The position numbers were made by a program, and so were the translations under genes. A DNA stretch of 62,518 bases, from contig CAJWDP010000015.1 of assembly GCA_913030835.1 (NCBI GenBank), forward strand, positions 1 through 62,518. Reading direction: 5' to 3'. Within the stretch, counting starts at the first letter, position 1. Every line of letters begins with the position of its first letter. Below are positions 7,441 through 59,881 of the stretch, piece after piece. Origin of the DNA: an uncultured Flavobacteriales bacterium. GTDB lineage: Bacteria; Bacteroidota; Bacteroidia; Flavobacteriales_D; Parvicellaceae. Under the pieces are notes generated by a model. The model had not been told where the DNA came from. It searched no databases and saw nothing but the letters and a program-made list of their open reading frames with translations.

Positions 7441-8111
7441 TGGCAAAATTATTTTTGGTTCCTACACCCATTGGAAATCTCGGAGACATTACTATTCGAG
7501 CAATAGAAACGCTAAAATCTGCACATGTTATTCTGGCGGAAGATACGCGAGTTGCAAAAAAGCTTTTGGATCACTACGAAATCAGTACGCCCGTAAAATC
7601 CTATCATCAGCACAACGAGCATAAAATAACAGAGGAAATCGCGATTAGAATTAGCAGCGGAGAAACAACTGCCTTAATTTCTGACGCAGGCACTCCGGGT
7701 ATATCGGATCCAGGTTTTTTATTGGTACGCAAGTGCATGGAAGAAGGCATACCAGTTGAATGCCTCCCCGGTCCAACGGCACTAATTCCAGCTATAGTTG
7801 CCTCAGGAATTCCGTCAGACCGATTTTATTTTGAGGGATTCCTTCCGCACAAAAAAGGAAGAAAATCCAGGCTCACAGCTATATTGGAATTGGATAGAAC
7901 CGTTGTTTTGTATGAATCTACGCACCGAATCCTAAAGCTGTTAAAAGAAGTTAATGAAATGGCCCCCTTACGGCAAATATCCGTATCTAGAGAGTTGACA
8001 AAAAAATTCGAAGAACATGCGCGGGGTACAGCACAGGAACTATTACACCACTTTGAGCAAGGCTCCACTAAAGGGGAATTTGTGGTGGTTATACAAGGGG
8101 TCAAGGGTTAA
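7440..8111 (+). CDS. rsmI: 16S rRNA (cytidine1402-2'-O)-methyltransferase
   Basis: RsmI methylates the ribose of C1402 in 16S rRNA using S-adenosylmethionine. The 223-residue sequence has the tetrapyrrole-methylase fold motifs: VPTPIGNLGDITIRA at the N-terminus, LAEDTRVAKKLL, ISDAGTPGISDPG, CLPGPTALIPA and FYFEGFLPHKKGRK. The length is close to the single-domain RsmI forms of Bacteroidota. The ATG at 7440 shares one base with the TGA of the RDD gene, so translation is probably coupled. A GTG one codon earlier is less likely. The 3' end is overlapped by the start region of the next lipoprotein gene. Confidence 0.95.
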   Translation: MAKLFLVPTPIGNLGDITIRAIETLKSAHVILAEDTRVAKKLLDHYEISTPVKSYHQHNEHKITEEIAIRISSGETTALISDAGTPGISDPGFLLVRKCMEEGIPVECLPGPTALIPAIVASGIPSDRFYFEGFLPHKKGRKSRLTAILELDRTVVLYESTHRILKLLKEVNEMAPLRQISVSRELTKKFEEHARGTAQELLHHFEQGSTKGEFVVVIQGVKG

Positions 8112-55523: not shown

Positions 55524-56213
55524 CTACCTGGAAGCGCCGAAGCGAATGGGCAGCTTAAAATAGCTGCGGACTTTTTCTCCGTTGAGCTCTGCCGGTTTCC
55601 AATTGGGCAAGCTCCTAACCACTCGTTCTGATTCTCGTATCAATGATCGATGGCGGCCACGAACTGCCTTCACCTGTGTTACGGAACCATCCAGTTCAAC
55701 CACAAACTGAACATGAATACTCTCTCGAATTCCGAGCTCTAGGCACTCCTCCGGATATCGAATGTGTTTTTTGATGTATTGGATCAATGCTTTTTGACCT
55801 CCCGGGAACTCAGCAGAATGATCAACAAAGGTTCTTATTGATGTATCTATTTCAAAGACAACAGGCTCGCTACCTATTGTATCTACGGGAAGGTTTGGGT
55901 TATAAACGATAGGATTCGGTGCTGTATCCGTAACGTATTCAACAATTTTTTCCAGGGTATCAACAACCTTAATGTCTCTCTTTTTTTCTCGTTGCTTTGG
56001 TTTTGGAGGGTTATATTTTCGTTTGACTTCTATTGGCTGATCCTCCAATGCCATTTCGTCTGATAATTCTTCATAGAGCATAATATCCTCCAGCGCCAGC
56101 TCTCCAGTTTTCCATTCGAACGCCAGAAGCGTTAATCCTAACGATGCTATAATCCCTATTGTGAGCAACCCATTCCGTTTGCTTCCTCCATTTTTCTTTT
56201 GATTGTTCTGCAT
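55524..56213 (-). CDS. TonB-family energy transducer, second copy
   Basis: This 229-residue protein has one N-terminal membrane helix (about 17-35, LLTIGIIASLGLTLLAFEW), a proline/lysine-rich spacer (PPKPKQREKKRD) and a TonB C-terminal domain (about 135-229) with EFPGGQKALIQYIKKHIRYP, VQFVVELDGSVTQVKAV and VVRSLPNWKPAELNGEKV. It transmits energy to outer-membrane receptors, or acts as a paralogue with another task. It is the last gene of a probable four-gene operon with the kinase, regulator and a more divergent TonB homologue. Confidence 0.87.
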   Translation of the reverse strand: MQNNQKKNGGSKRNGLLTIGIIASLGLTLLAFEWKTGELALEDIMLYEELSDEMALEDQPIEVKRKYNPPKPKQREKKRDIKVVDTLEKIVEYVTDTAPNPIVYNPNLPVDTIGSEPVVFEIDTSIRTFVDHSAEFPGGQKALIQYIKKHIRYPEECLELGIRESIHVQFVVELDGSVTQVKAVRGRHRSLIRESERVVRSLPNWKPAELNGEKVRSYFKLPIRFGASR

Positions 56214-56266
56214 GACTTGTTATTTCCTAATTAGATGCAGAACAACAACAATTGCATAAAATCACC

Positions 56267-57019
56267 TCAACGATACTGAAATTTGATCGGTATGGAAAAA
56301 GAAACTCGTATGTTCATTCCTCCATAAATCGCAGGTTGCATTGGCGGCAAAGAATTTAAAACGCGAATTGCTTCCCGAGCACAATCCTCGCAAACGGCAT
56401 CGGAGTTCAGCACCTTTACTTCCTGCGTGAATCCCGTTTCGTCTAAGACAACCAGCGCATGCACAATTTGTTCTCCTCCGCCCAATTTTACACATTTCGG
56501 AACAGTCAAATTGCTCTTTACATAGCTGAAGATCTTCTCAACAGTACAATCAAAAACCAAAGGGTTGTATTCGTTGTCTTTCAAACACTCCCTATAGTGC
56601 GGCCTTTGGTCAATGTCCAAGACGTTTTTGGTGATTACCCCTGGGAAAGGGTCAATAAAGATTTCCGACTCATCAAAATTGGATAATTGTCCGTCAGGCA
56701 ACTGAAATTCTCTTCCGGAAGAATCCGTGGTGACAAATTTGGCAGTATCCATTAATGTGTCTTGATAGAATACTAGTGCTTCTGAACTATTGAACTCGGG
56801 CTTTGGCTTTGGCCTTTCCGGAATTCCTTTCTCTTCAACAATCACAACTTCGGGCACAGGTTCAATTTCCAAGGATTCGACTGTATCAACCAAGCTATTT
56901 TCCGAAAACACCCATTCCAGCGCAATAAGACAAATGGATAATGCAACAATCAACCCGATATAAAAAAAGCCTCTTTTCCTTTTTTCAATGTTGGCACCTT
57001 CTGTTTTCTTATCGCGCAT
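56267..57019 (-). CDS. TonB-like protein, divergent copy
   Basis: The protein has about 250 residues from the ATG at 57019; a TTG at 57034 would add five. The ATG is preceded by AGGAAAA. One membrane helix (about 20-38, FYIGLIVALSICLIALEWVF) is followed by an acidic spacer with RPKPKPEFN and a C-terminal domain ending LNSLPPMQPAIYGGMNIRVS. That domain follows the TonB-C/CarboxypepD pattern (VHALVVLDETGFTQEVKVLNSDAVCEDCAREA) but is poorly conserved. It is probably co-transcribed with the regulator (gap 42) and the following tonB (gap 53). The partner is unknown; energising or sensing are both possible. Confidence 0.8.
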   Translation of the reverse strand: MRDKKTEGANIEKRKRGFFYIGLIVALSICLIALEWVFSENSLVDTVESLEIEPVPEVVIVEEKGIPERPKPKPEFNSSEALVFYQDTLMDTAKFVTTDSSGREFQLPDGQLSNFDESEIFIDPFPGVITKNVLDIDQRPHYRECLKDNEYNPLVFDCTVEKIFSYVKSNLTVPKCVKLGGGEQIVHALVVLDETGFTQEVKVLNSDAVCEDCAREAIRVLNSLPPMQPAIYGGMNIRVSFSIPIKFQYR

Positions 57020-57061
57020 TTTTCCTAAACGCAATAAAGCTAGTGAAAAGTATGGCCTTTC

Positions 57062-57754
57062 CTAATCAGGCAAGAAGAGTTTAAACCCTCGTCCATGAAT
57101 GTTCATAATTTCAATTTTATCGTCACCTCTAAGATGCTTTCTGAGCTTTGCGATATAGACGTCCATACTTCTTCCATTGAAGTAGTTGTCGTCTCCCCAA
57201 ACGGCCTTTAATGCATCATTTCGTTCCAAAATCCCATTTGCATTTTTACACAATAATTTGAGCAAGTCACTTTCTTTTGTTGTAAGGCGGCTGGACTCAC
57301 CTTCTAGCTCCAACAGTCTTTCTTTTGGCTTAAATAAAAACTTGCCAATTTGATAGCTATTGGCCTCTTTTGGTCCATCGTTGGAAGTACGCCTTAGAAT
57401 GGCATTCATTCTTGCCAACAACTCTTCCATAGAAAAGGGTTTCGTCATGTAATCATCCGCTCCCGCATTGAATCCTTCCAGAGTATCTTCTTTCATCGAC
57501 TTTGCGGTGAGAAACAACATGGGAACTGTTTTGTCTATTCCTCTGATTTCTTTTGCCAATGTGATTCCGTCTTTCACAGGCATCATGACATCGAGAATAA
57601 GAAAATCAAATTCTCCTTTTACAAAAGCATCGTATCCGTCTTGGCCATTCGTTCTGAGTACTGTATCGTAACCCTTTGCAATCAAATAATCTTTGAGTAG
57701 TGCGCCTAAATTGATGTCATCCTCTACAAGTAATACTTTGATTTGATTTTCCAT
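57062..57754 (-). CDS. rprY: OmpR-family response regulator, RprY-like
   Basis: This 230-residue regulator has a receiver domain (1 to about 120) with Glu11/Asp12/Asp13, phosphoacceptor Asp55 in LILDVMMPV and Lys in YMTKPFSMEE, and a winged-helix DNA-binding domain (about 130-230). The sequence KSMKEDTLEGFNAGADDYMTK is close to the RprY regulator of Bacteroidota. It is 11 bases downstream of its kinase gene and should bind direct repeats. The TTAAC array upstream of the kinase gene is a candidate target. Confidence 0.9.
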   Translation of the reverse strand: MENQIKVLLVEDDINLGALLKDYLIAKGYDTVLRTNGQDGYDAFVKGEFDFLILDVMMPVKDGITLAKEIRGIDKTVPMLFLTAKSMKEDTLEGFNAGADDYMTKPFSMEELLARMNAILRRTSNDGPKEANSYQIGKFLFKPKERLLELEGESSRLTTKESDLLKLLCKNANGILERNDALKAVWGDDNYFNGRSMDVYIAKLRKHLRGDDKIEIMNIHGRGFKLFLPD

Positions 57755-57765
57755 AATATCCGAAG

Positions 57766-59319
57766 TTAAAGTTTTGTTGCTAAAGTTGGAATTTCCAACT
57801 CAAATGTGCTCCCTTTACCCATTGCACTATCTACATTAATTTGGCCCTCATGCTTCTCCGTGACCGCCTTTACATAGCTAAGTCCAAGTCCAAACCCCTT
57901 TACATTGTGTATGTTCCCAGTTGGTACTCGATACAACTTGTCAAAAATGCGCTTCTGATCCTCCCGGCTAATTCCAATTCCATTGTCTTGAATTTTTATT
58001 GAAATCCCCTCCTCGGTATTTGCAGTTGCAATGGTAATTTGCGGTTTCTCAGGACTATATTTATTTGCATTATCCAAAAGGTTATAAACGACATTCGTGA
58101 TATGAACCTTGTCTCCATGCACTCTGTCGTTTTTGGCATCCAAATTCAAATTTAGATTTCCACTCTTACTCTCAATTTGTATCGCAATATTGTTCGCTGC
58201 TTTTTTAATGATGTCATGAATTGACAATTCCTCAAACTTAAACTTGAGCTCTCCGCGATCAATTATGGCTGTTTGAAGCACGTTTTCTACCAGCACTCCC
58301 AATCGTTTGTTTTCCTCATTGATCATCCTAACGAAATTGCTTCTCTGCATTTCTGTACTGCGAATATCTTTGTCAGAAAGCGCCTCACATGCTAGCGATA
58401 TAGTTGAAATTGGAGTCTTTAGTTCGTGCGTCATATTTCCAATAAAATCATTTTTAATCTGAGATAATCTTTTTTGATCGTAAATGGTTTTAATTGTAAA
58501 ATAGAAAGCGTAAGTAAGCCCCGCCATAATCAATAAACTAATCAACAGAACGCCCCACATTTTCCCGATTACATAACTCTTTTGATTCGGAAAAAATACA
58601 CTTACCCTATAAGGCGACCCAAAGATATCGGCTGGGAATAAATTCGAGCTAAATTCTGAATTGTATAGCTCAGATAGATTTTCTTTGGTGTTTTGGTTTT
58701 TATGGTAAGATGTCTTTCCCCAATTATCATAAACCAAAAAATCATATTCTGCTGAAATGCCATGCTCTTCCAATTCAAGTTTGAGCAATGAATCCAGTGC
58801 TTTTGATGGAAGCCGCTCTTCCAAGGTTTTTAGCATGTTTATGTCAAACAAATTGTTCATTGCTGAAGGTAAGTTTCCCTGGCTGCTCAGAACTTCTGCT
58901 GCCCAATTGTTCATTGGACTTTCCATAAACTGGTTAAACTCCGTTTCCGAGGGCATAATTGTGCTTGACATATAAGTGCCGTTTTTTGATCTCTTCTCAA
59001 CCACTTTCATGGTGATTTCCTTACCATCCTTAACAAAAACAGAATCTTTTATAATAACTTCTGTATCCGCATCTTCCAACCCCATGTTCATTAATTGGCT
59101 GTACCAATTGTTGAGCCCCACCCGTCGTTTTACTTTTGCCAATTGTTCATAGGTTCCAATCCGATCTGATAAATCAGCCATCACTTCGTTTACAGTGTCT
59201 CTAAAAGAAGACTCTTTTAATGTGGCAGCATCATTCACCAAATACCCCAACAACAGAATTAGCAGCAACATTCCAAATGAAATTGGAATAACTAGAGTTG
59301 AGATTGTCTTTTTAAACAT
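57766..59319 (-). CDS. rprX: sensor histidine kinase, RprX-like
   Basis: From the ATG at 59319 the protein has 517 residues; an upstream TTG would add seven. It has a membrane helix near the N-terminus (about 7-27), a large periplasmic sensor region (about 28-250) and a second helix (about 253-275). The HisKA domain has His298 in NMTHELKTPIST, and the HATPase has YNLLDNANKYSPE, QDNGIG and FGLGLSYVKAV. It is the first gene of the operon with rprY-like and two tonB-like genes. The upstream region carries a four-unit TTAAC direct-repeat array and a TAACTTTG -7 box. Confidence 0.9.
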   Translation of the reverse strand: MFKKTISTLVIPISFGMLLLILLLGYLVNDAATLKESSFRDTVNEVMADLSDRIGTYEQLAKVKRRVGLNNWYSQLMNMGLEDADTEVIIKDSVFVKDGKEITMKVVEKRSKNGTYMSSTIMPSETEFNQFMESPMNNWAAEVLSSQGNLPSAMNNLFDINMLKTLEERLPSKALDSLLKLELEEHGISAEYDFLVYDNWGKTSYHKNQNTKENLSELYNSEFSSNLFPADIFGSPYRVSVFFPNQKSYVIGKMWGVLLISLLIMAGLTYAFYFTIKTIYDQKRLSQIKNDFIGNMTHELKTPISTISLACEALSDKDIRSTEMQRSNFVRMINEENKRLGVLVENVLQTAIIDRGELKFKFEELSIHDIIKKAANNIAIQIESKSGNLNLNLDAKNDRVHGDKVHITNVVYNLLDNANKYSPEKPQITIATANTEEGISIKIQDNGIGISREDQKRIFDKLYRVPTGNIHNVKGFGLGLSYVKAVTEKHEGQINVDSAMGKGSTFELEIPTLATKL

Positions 59320-59337
59320 TGTGTATGATATACTCAG

Positions 59338-59345
59338 CAAAGTTA
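59338..59345 (-). promoter_or_regulatory. -7 element of the kinase operon
   Basis: Minus-strand TAACTTTG fits TAnnTTTG exactly and ends 18 bases before the ATG at 59319. No TTG is present at the -33 distance, as expected for an activator-dependent promoter. Confidence 0.55.
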
Positions 59346-59371: not shown

Positions 59372-59409
59372 TTTAACAGTCTTTAACATCATTTAACCTG
59401 ACGTTAACA
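59372..59409. promoter_or_regulatory. four-unit TTAAC direct-repeat operator candidate
   Basis: On the plus strand TTTAAC occurs at 59372, 59382 and 59392, exactly 10 bases apart, and GTTAAC at 59403 (11 bases). The extended forms read TTAACA, TTAACA, TTAACC, TTAACA. Relative to the kinase -7 box the array covers about -40 to -77. Same-face direct repeats of this kind are typical sites for OmpR/PhoB-type regulators, such as the one encoded in this operon. Confidence 0.6.
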
Positions 59410-59548: not shown

Positions 59549-59881
59549 ATGGTTAGGTTAGTTTTCATAGCGGTTTTCCTTGTTGGATTGGCAAATGTCA
59601 TTCCAGCGGGGGCAACTGCTGTTTTTGGTCAGGAAGGGGTAAAAATTACTGTGTTTCCTAATCCGTTTAGATCTGTATTCAGTATTCAGGCGGAACGCCA
59701 TGAGTTTCCTGCAAAAATTGTTGTAACAGATGTTCTTGGTAAAGTAGTTTATCAGAAATCTGTATTCACGCCTCAAAGAGTTGACATTGACCTTTCTCAG
59801 AAAAGATTGACTTCAGGAGTTTACTTCCTGAATTGGAAGTCCAAGGACAATTCCAAAACCGTACGGATCGTGAAGAGTTAG
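59549..59881 (+). CDS. cargo-less T9SS sorting-domain mini-protein
   Basis: This 110-residue protein has a signal peptide (about 1-28, ending ATAVFGQ) followed directly by a type A T9SS sorting domain (about 31-110) that contains VFPNPFRSVFSI, VVTDVLGKVVYQK, LTSGVYFLNW and a Lys-rich end. No passenger domain is present. It is transcribed divergently from the RprX-like kinase gene. I infer a substrate-like decoy, reporter or scaffold for the T9SS; alternatively it is the remnant of a larger cargo gene. A strong terminator follows 90 bases downstream. Confidence 0.82.
   Translation: MVRLVFIAVFLVGLANVIPAGATAVFGQEGVKITVFPNPFRSVFSIQAERHEFPAKIVVTDVLGKVVYQKSVFTPQRVDIDLSQKRLTSGVYFLNWKSKDNSKTVRIVKS

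Follow-up and report, generated by a model that had tools for sequence, protein, structure and literature searches.

Direct-repeat operators and autoregulation are already ordinary for response regulators of the OmpR family. In Bacillus subtilis, the PhoP box of the phosphate regulon consists of TTAACA-like repeats with an 11-bp period. Closer to the locus described here stands the two-component system RprXY of Bacteroides and Porphyromonas. RprY of P. gingivalis binds its own promoter in gel shifts and is regarded by the authors as a chaperone repressor (PMC3646045), and rprX/rprY is the sole two-component system called essential in a transposon screen of B. fragilis (PMC4072883). Neither an operator, a motif nor a conserved regulon for RprY was found in the open papers that were searched.

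Here, an array of GTTAA repeats is described upstream of an RprX-like sensor kinase gene. It is situated in a stretch of 62,518 nucleotides, analysed as a whole and referred to as the window, which represents one contig of a 3.14-Mb genome in 86 contigs and is placed in the Bacteroidota by its relatives. Judged by sequence comparison, the array is probably the operator of an RprY-type regulator that would switch on the operon encoding it as well as envelope genes of relatives (M23 peptidase, bamD, FKBP isomerase), in a manner resembling WalKR.

The array, its promoter and the operon behind it

The preliminary description had reported TTTAAC at 59372, 59382 and 59392 and GTTAAC at 59403, and these positions were recovered exactly as given. 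The perfect -7 box that it had placed at 59338-59345 is present as well, reading TAACTTTG from 59345 to 59338 on the minus strand, and the -33 element is missing as described, the stretch 17-25 bp above the box being without TTG. The repeat spacing of 10-11 bp stands as a range, with the correction that GTTAA(A), taken in the direction of the kinase, is the preferable reading of the unit and that the core spacing is 10 bp. Read in this direction, the region upstream of the kinase consists of TGTTAACGTCAGGTTAAATGATGTTAAAGACTGTTAA, followed by 27 bp and TAACTTTG; the half-site starts lie 11, 10 and 10 bp apart (59408-59373, kinase strand), and three of the four half-sites in the window can be read as TGTTAA. 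On the scale of F. psychrophilum, where TAnnTTTG is located at -12 to -5 (PMC9723704), transcription would start near 59333 and the array, at about -75 to -40, would be located farther upstream than the -33 region. A further TTAAC-N5-TTAAC pair of the window is located at 7940-7954 (-).

Table 1. Features of the array, the promoter and the operon, in window coordinates
Feature	Coordinates	Strand	Description
Half-site 1 (distal)	59404..59408	-	GTTAA; recurrent in relatives as a half-site at -20/-21 relative to the core
Half-site 2	59393..59397	-	GTTAA; 11 bp from half-site 1; offset -10/-11 recurs in relatives
Half-site 3 (core)	59383..59387	-	GTTAA; 10 bp from half-site 2
Half-site 4 (core, promoter-proximal)	59373..59377	-	GTTAA; 10 bp from half-site 3; 27 bp to the -7 box
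-7 promoter box	59338..59345	-	TAACTTTG; consensus TAnnTTTG
RprX-like sensor histidine kinase	57766..59319	-	HisKA + HATPase_c; start ATG 59319
RprY-type OmpR-family response regulator	57062..57754	-	Response_reg + Trans_reg_C; presumed binder of the array
Protein with weak TonB_C match	56267..57034	-	23.7 bits (cut-off 24.6); possibly same operon
TonB_C protein	55524..56213	-	49.9 bits (cut-off 24.6); possibly same operon

The ATG in Table 1 is the likely start of the kinase; a longer TTG start at 59340 falls inside the -7 box. An OmpR-family regulator encoded in the same operon, as proposed before, is found downstream of the kinase in the form of the Trans_reg_C protein. Its best NCBIfam model is RprY (NF051850, equivalog), which covers residues 1-229 of 230 and scores 336.0 bits, against 165.6 bits for the second-best model; since the curated RprY cut-off is 370 bits, the protein is named RprY-type and is not filed as RprY. 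In a tree comprising no named reference RprY, it groups with the RprY candidate of a member of the Bacteroidaceae (Phocaeicola L069), apart from the paralogues. An identity as a PhoP/PhoB phosphate system was rejected, as the Bacteroidota PhoB model yields 165.6 bits (cut-off 270), and the kinase does not reach the WalK model (173 bits, cut-off 725). The genes that follow the regulator encode two TonB_C-type proteins (55524-57034) and may belong to the kinase operon. With at least two direct half-sites 10-11 bp apart, the array would qualify as a direct-repeat operator of the OmpR/PhoB family; its apparently fixed position relative to the promoter, to which the dapF sites described below are exceptions, also agrees with such an operator.

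Recurrence in relatives and genes behind the sites

Array, conservation, spacing, distance to the -7 box and downstream genes were computed directly. TTAAC-N5-TTAAC occurs three times in the window, with 0.14 occurrences expected in shuffles. Runs of at least three half-sites at 10-11 bp appeared in none of 600 Markov-1 random windows and runs of two in 156 of them; among the 25 pairs at 10-11 bp listed for the 3.14-Mb genome, only the array of the window chains into three or more. The strict pattern GTTAAN5GTTAAN{26,29}TANNTTTG gave 85 matches in 63 of 199 genomes of the order and 121 matches in 77 of 392 genomes of the phylum, a reach (77/392) which was counted against the favoured explanation. 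Setting the half-sites 13 bp apart left six matches in the same 199 genomes (vs. 85). The reversed pattern gave 32 matches vs. 85 in the order and 32 vs. 121 in the phylum, where totals for strict and reversed patterns were summed by eye from tables; the 13-bp control is considered the better matched one, because reversed words were judged to be commoner in A+T-rich DNA. Accordingly, the repeats lie far above the density in shuffled sequence, which the preliminary description had named as the comparison to make, and a chance origin of the array was rejected on the basis of the shuffles, the random windows and the changed spacing.

Conservation was assessed with regulators from relatives and from 32 of 80 loci (48 distant ones were set aside), for which the region upstream of the kinase was read. 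From 65 loci, five without a kinase match and five forming the paralogue set were removed, leaving 55, and the pair was sought between -400 and +150, counted from the farthest in-frame kinase start. GTTAA-N5-GTTAA was present near the start of 39 of these 55 related kinases, with TAnnTTTG starting 27-29 bp below the pair in 32 of the 39 (27 bp at 21 loci, 28 bp at eight and 29 bp at three). The best unrelated 5-mer recurred at 6/55 loci at the same spacing and at 10/55 at any spacing of 8-12 bp, overlapping shifts aside. UP elements, A+T-rich stretches contacted by RNA polymerase, are located around -40 to -60, and the sequence here is A+T-rich too; that the repeats represent such an upstream element, or chance, is nevertheless highly improbable, given the empty set of random windows, the collapse of matches once the spacing is changed and the failure of A+T-rich 5-mers to recur at this spacing (AAAAA at 6/55 loci).

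Among the 39 pair-bearing loci are members of the Flavobacteriales, Bacteroidales (Gaoshiqia, Labilibaculum, Perlabentimonas) and Cytophagales (Cyclobacteriaceae, Microscillaceae). Upstream of the core, the mean number of half-site matches (of five) amounted to 3.1 at -10, 2.5 at -11, 2.3 at -21 and 2.1 at -20, compared to an all-offset mean of 1.4, in a profile of 35 sites (39 minus four congeners; some congeners remain). Four half-sites are thus the common design, with the half-site recurring at both -10/-11 and -20/-21. The exact 11-10-10 array was found at 6/55 loci, namely in the window, in two of its congeners (L136, L137) and in L155, L079 and L083 of other families. The comparison with relatives that the preliminary description had called for hence gave conserved repeats at 39/55 loci together with traces of all four half-sites. 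The pair is absent from 16/55 kinase loci, among them those of Phocaeicola, of two Prevotellaceae and of two genera in the family to which the window belongs. The latter loci (L146, L147, L152, L153) feature RprY-type regulators and a kinase without an upstream pair; the kinase may be co-transcribed there with a carboxylase-like gene, as this gene seems to end directly upstream in three of the four. The divergent gene at 59549 was also considered as a target and is not favoured, because the distance between array and kinase promoter stays constant with other neighbours, such as the end of a carboxylase-like gene (L144, L145, L154). At L154, the -7 box is imperfect.

When the distance to the -7 box was left free (10-40 bp), 68 of the 150 matches listed fell at 27-29 bp. 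From 203 distinct strict matches (counted by eye), 162 sites were read, and for 161 of these a downstream ORF was obtained by mechanical choice. Among the 162, 69 sites precede kinases and 17 an M23 peptidase (PF01551), followed by proteins with a CarboxypepD_reg match below the cut-off (15), FKBP_C (9), BamD (YfiO; 8) and DUF3108 (6), as well as single sites before OmpH, LolA_2 and OstA_2 proteins. Families were named by Pfam on one representative each, and these counts are not independent events, as sites are common by descent among close kin. The first 110 residues of the M23 protein gave no match; the domain lies further on and was found with the whole protein. The kinase start codon follows the -7 box by 4-8 nt at 53/69 kinase sites vs. 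12/92 other sites (mechanical starts), and by exactly 4 nt, which would be leaderless on the F. psychrophilum scale, at 25/69; in F. psychrophilum, leaderless mRNAs account for about 5.5% (PMC9723704).

Side peaks of the distance at 13, 22-24 and 30-31 bp led to dapF loci. At 20 such loci (L368-L387), picked by eye as recurring, GTTAA-N5-GTTAA and the -7 box are separated by 13, 22-23 or 30-31 bp and not by 27; dapF is directly behind the box in 16, and a small membrane-like protein is followed by dapF in four. DAP_epimerase was confirmed by Pfam for L387 and for dapF of the window's genome, and the first 120-130 residues of the small protein gave no Pfam match. The own dapF operon (L388) has the pair, touching the chosen TTG start of the small gene before dapF and therefore outside the 27-bp rule.

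A second strict site of the same genome (L170 1501-1552; G000:C47:22154-22205) precedes a family-2 glycosyltransferase gene and is kept with a diverged spacer in one of two congeners, G002 (L257), without a match in G001. Weaker or off-pattern sites precede genes for DUF1573, acyltransferase, polysaccharide-synthesis-like (just below the cut-off) and outer-membrane-barrel-like proteins, the barrel likeness of the last being our own reading, as its first 120-130 residues had no Pfam match. The scan of the own genome with two mismatches was not enriched (8 vs. 22 for the reversed control at 27 bp, 5 vs. 24 at 28 bp), and because the control gives more matches, these weak sites are not taken as evidence. 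In the 330 bp checked above the match, the own bamD has no pair, exact or with one mismatch; the own M23 gene has no exact pair but the one-mismatch form GTTAA-N5-CTTAA within 330 bp.

Candidate regulators and mode of action

An RprY-like regulator gene is situated beside all 20 box-bearing kinases checked, with 39-58% identity to that of the window. In a tree of 92 regulators, rooted by midpoint and with long outgroup rows, nine of these 20 fall into clade A together with the window and 11 into clade C. Clade A comprises 67 rows (99/85), including the window and Phocaeicola L069, with clades B (98/95) and C (99/98) outside. The clade-C members constitute a sister two-component system with a GTTAA direct repeat before its kinase (L338, L340, L342-L347, L349, L351, L353). 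As the box of clade C is very similar, the identity of the binder does not follow from the half-site alone. It is nevertheless quite unlikely that a different OmpR-family regulator, for example the clade-C sister or a further paralogue, occupies the array and exerts external control over rprXY. Such a binder would account for the near-identical boxes at clade-C kinases in the same genomes (G310, G287, G560), and the stretch RS[ML]DV[YF], which we take to be the recognition helix, is alike across the clades. Still, the clades differ in that C follows both half-sites at 6/11 clade-C sites vs. 0/8 clade-A sites examined, so that GTTAA seems to be a taste common to A and C which differs at the next base. 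Moreover, the sole other regulator above 1e-60 in the window's genome is a clade-B paralogue (49% identical), and the 10-bp pair was found at 0/5 clade-B kinase loci checked. At one of these loci, L163, a pair with 11-bp spacing is situated 155 bp upstream of the start.

The idea of the preliminary description, an OmpR-family tandem-repeat site with the co-encoded rprY-like regulator as predicted binder and autoregulated activation, is thereby supported at the level of sequence. We infer from these patterns the binder, the arrangement of its dimers, activation and the signal; the window's genome may have the regulon of its relatives. Two RprY-type dimers would occupy the four GTTAA half-sites in head-to-tail order, all on one helical face, and the proximal pair, centred near -47, would replace the missing -33 element. 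The bound regulator would recruit RNA polymerase to the TAnnTTTG box, and the kinase-regulator operon would in this way activate itself once the kinase is switched on. The genes for M23 peptidase, BamD and FKBP isomerase in relatives may be driven by this operator as well, again with an unchanged promoter distance, and the kinase-regulator pair would be an envelope-homeostasis two-component system like WalKR in Firmicutes.

A regulator bound to the same operator could also repress its own operon by negative feedback, which is considered unlikely. Repression would be in line with the conclusion of the P. gingivalis authors, whose RprY binds its own promoter (PMC3646045), and with the lowered bft expression caused by RprXY in B. 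fragilis (PMC12197655). Yet the array, covering about -75 to -40, would lie farther upstream than the -33 region, and it is from there that CenR activates (PMC9275681). With WalR, position is decisive, and repression is exerted by sites located between or below -35/-10 (PMC10746227); self-activation is favoured for this reason. The lack of TTG at -33 likewise argues against repression and extends to the related kinase sites, where TTTG is absent at 65/69 and TTG at 58/69 (raw counts).

Relation to known systems

A search of open papers yielded neither a defined box of this kind nor its fixed promoter distance or its repeated occurrence ahead of envelope genes. Such a conserved box at a set distance to its promoter provides a searchable pattern, ready mutants and a prediction on envelope maintenance, which is useful as the regulon of an essential system becomes testable. 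A wider proposal, made tentatively, is that systems of the RprXY type correspond in the Bacteroidota to WalKR. They would control a widespread envelope-homeostasis regulon by a GTTAA operator of four half-sites, located at about -75 to -40. The kinase promoters would be self-activating, and most of their mRNAs would begin at the start codon or a few bases ahead of it. Targets would belong to peptidoglycan (M23 peptidase, dapF) as well as to the assembly of the outer membrane (bamD, FKBP isomerase).

Among the known systems, the PhoP box had been named as a close parallel in the preliminary description. This holds loosely, as the repeats are TTAACA-like but have a core period of 10 bp, and the regulator of the window fits RprY far better than the Bacteroidota PhoB model (336 vs. 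165.6 bits). MtrA of Actinobacteria likewise uses a direct repeat (GtnAcC-n5-GTnAcn) and has a site in its own operon at -34 (PMC13189361), and differs by the C in its half-site, its regulon and its phylum. CenKR of Rhodobacter sphaeroides, belonging to another phylum and having TGA-N8-TGA as its half-site, is similar in being an OmpR-family envelope regulator with a tandem repeat at 10-bp distance that activates from above -35 (PMC9275681). With WalKR (VicRK, YycGF) of Firmicutes, the array has in common the direct-repeat form; the WalR consensus is TGTWAH-N5-TGTWAH (PMC4168254), and the half-site TGTTAA fits TGTWAH at least as well as the PhoP box. Cell-wall gene targets (PMC10746227) and an essential system, as in rprX/rprY of B. 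fragilis, are further parallels. WalR half-sites, however, start 11 bp apart, a period from which the 10-bp core departs, so that the array is not a WalR box, and the kinase scores 173 vs. 725 bits for WalK. RprXY itself differs in that the regulator of the window stays below its cut-off (336 < 370) and in that the loci of Phocaeicola and of the two Prevotellaceae gave no such pair. It nevertheless provides the best model for this regulator and a Phocaeicola row within its clade A, and binding to the own promoter, predicted here, is published for RprY of P. gingivalis (PMC3646045).
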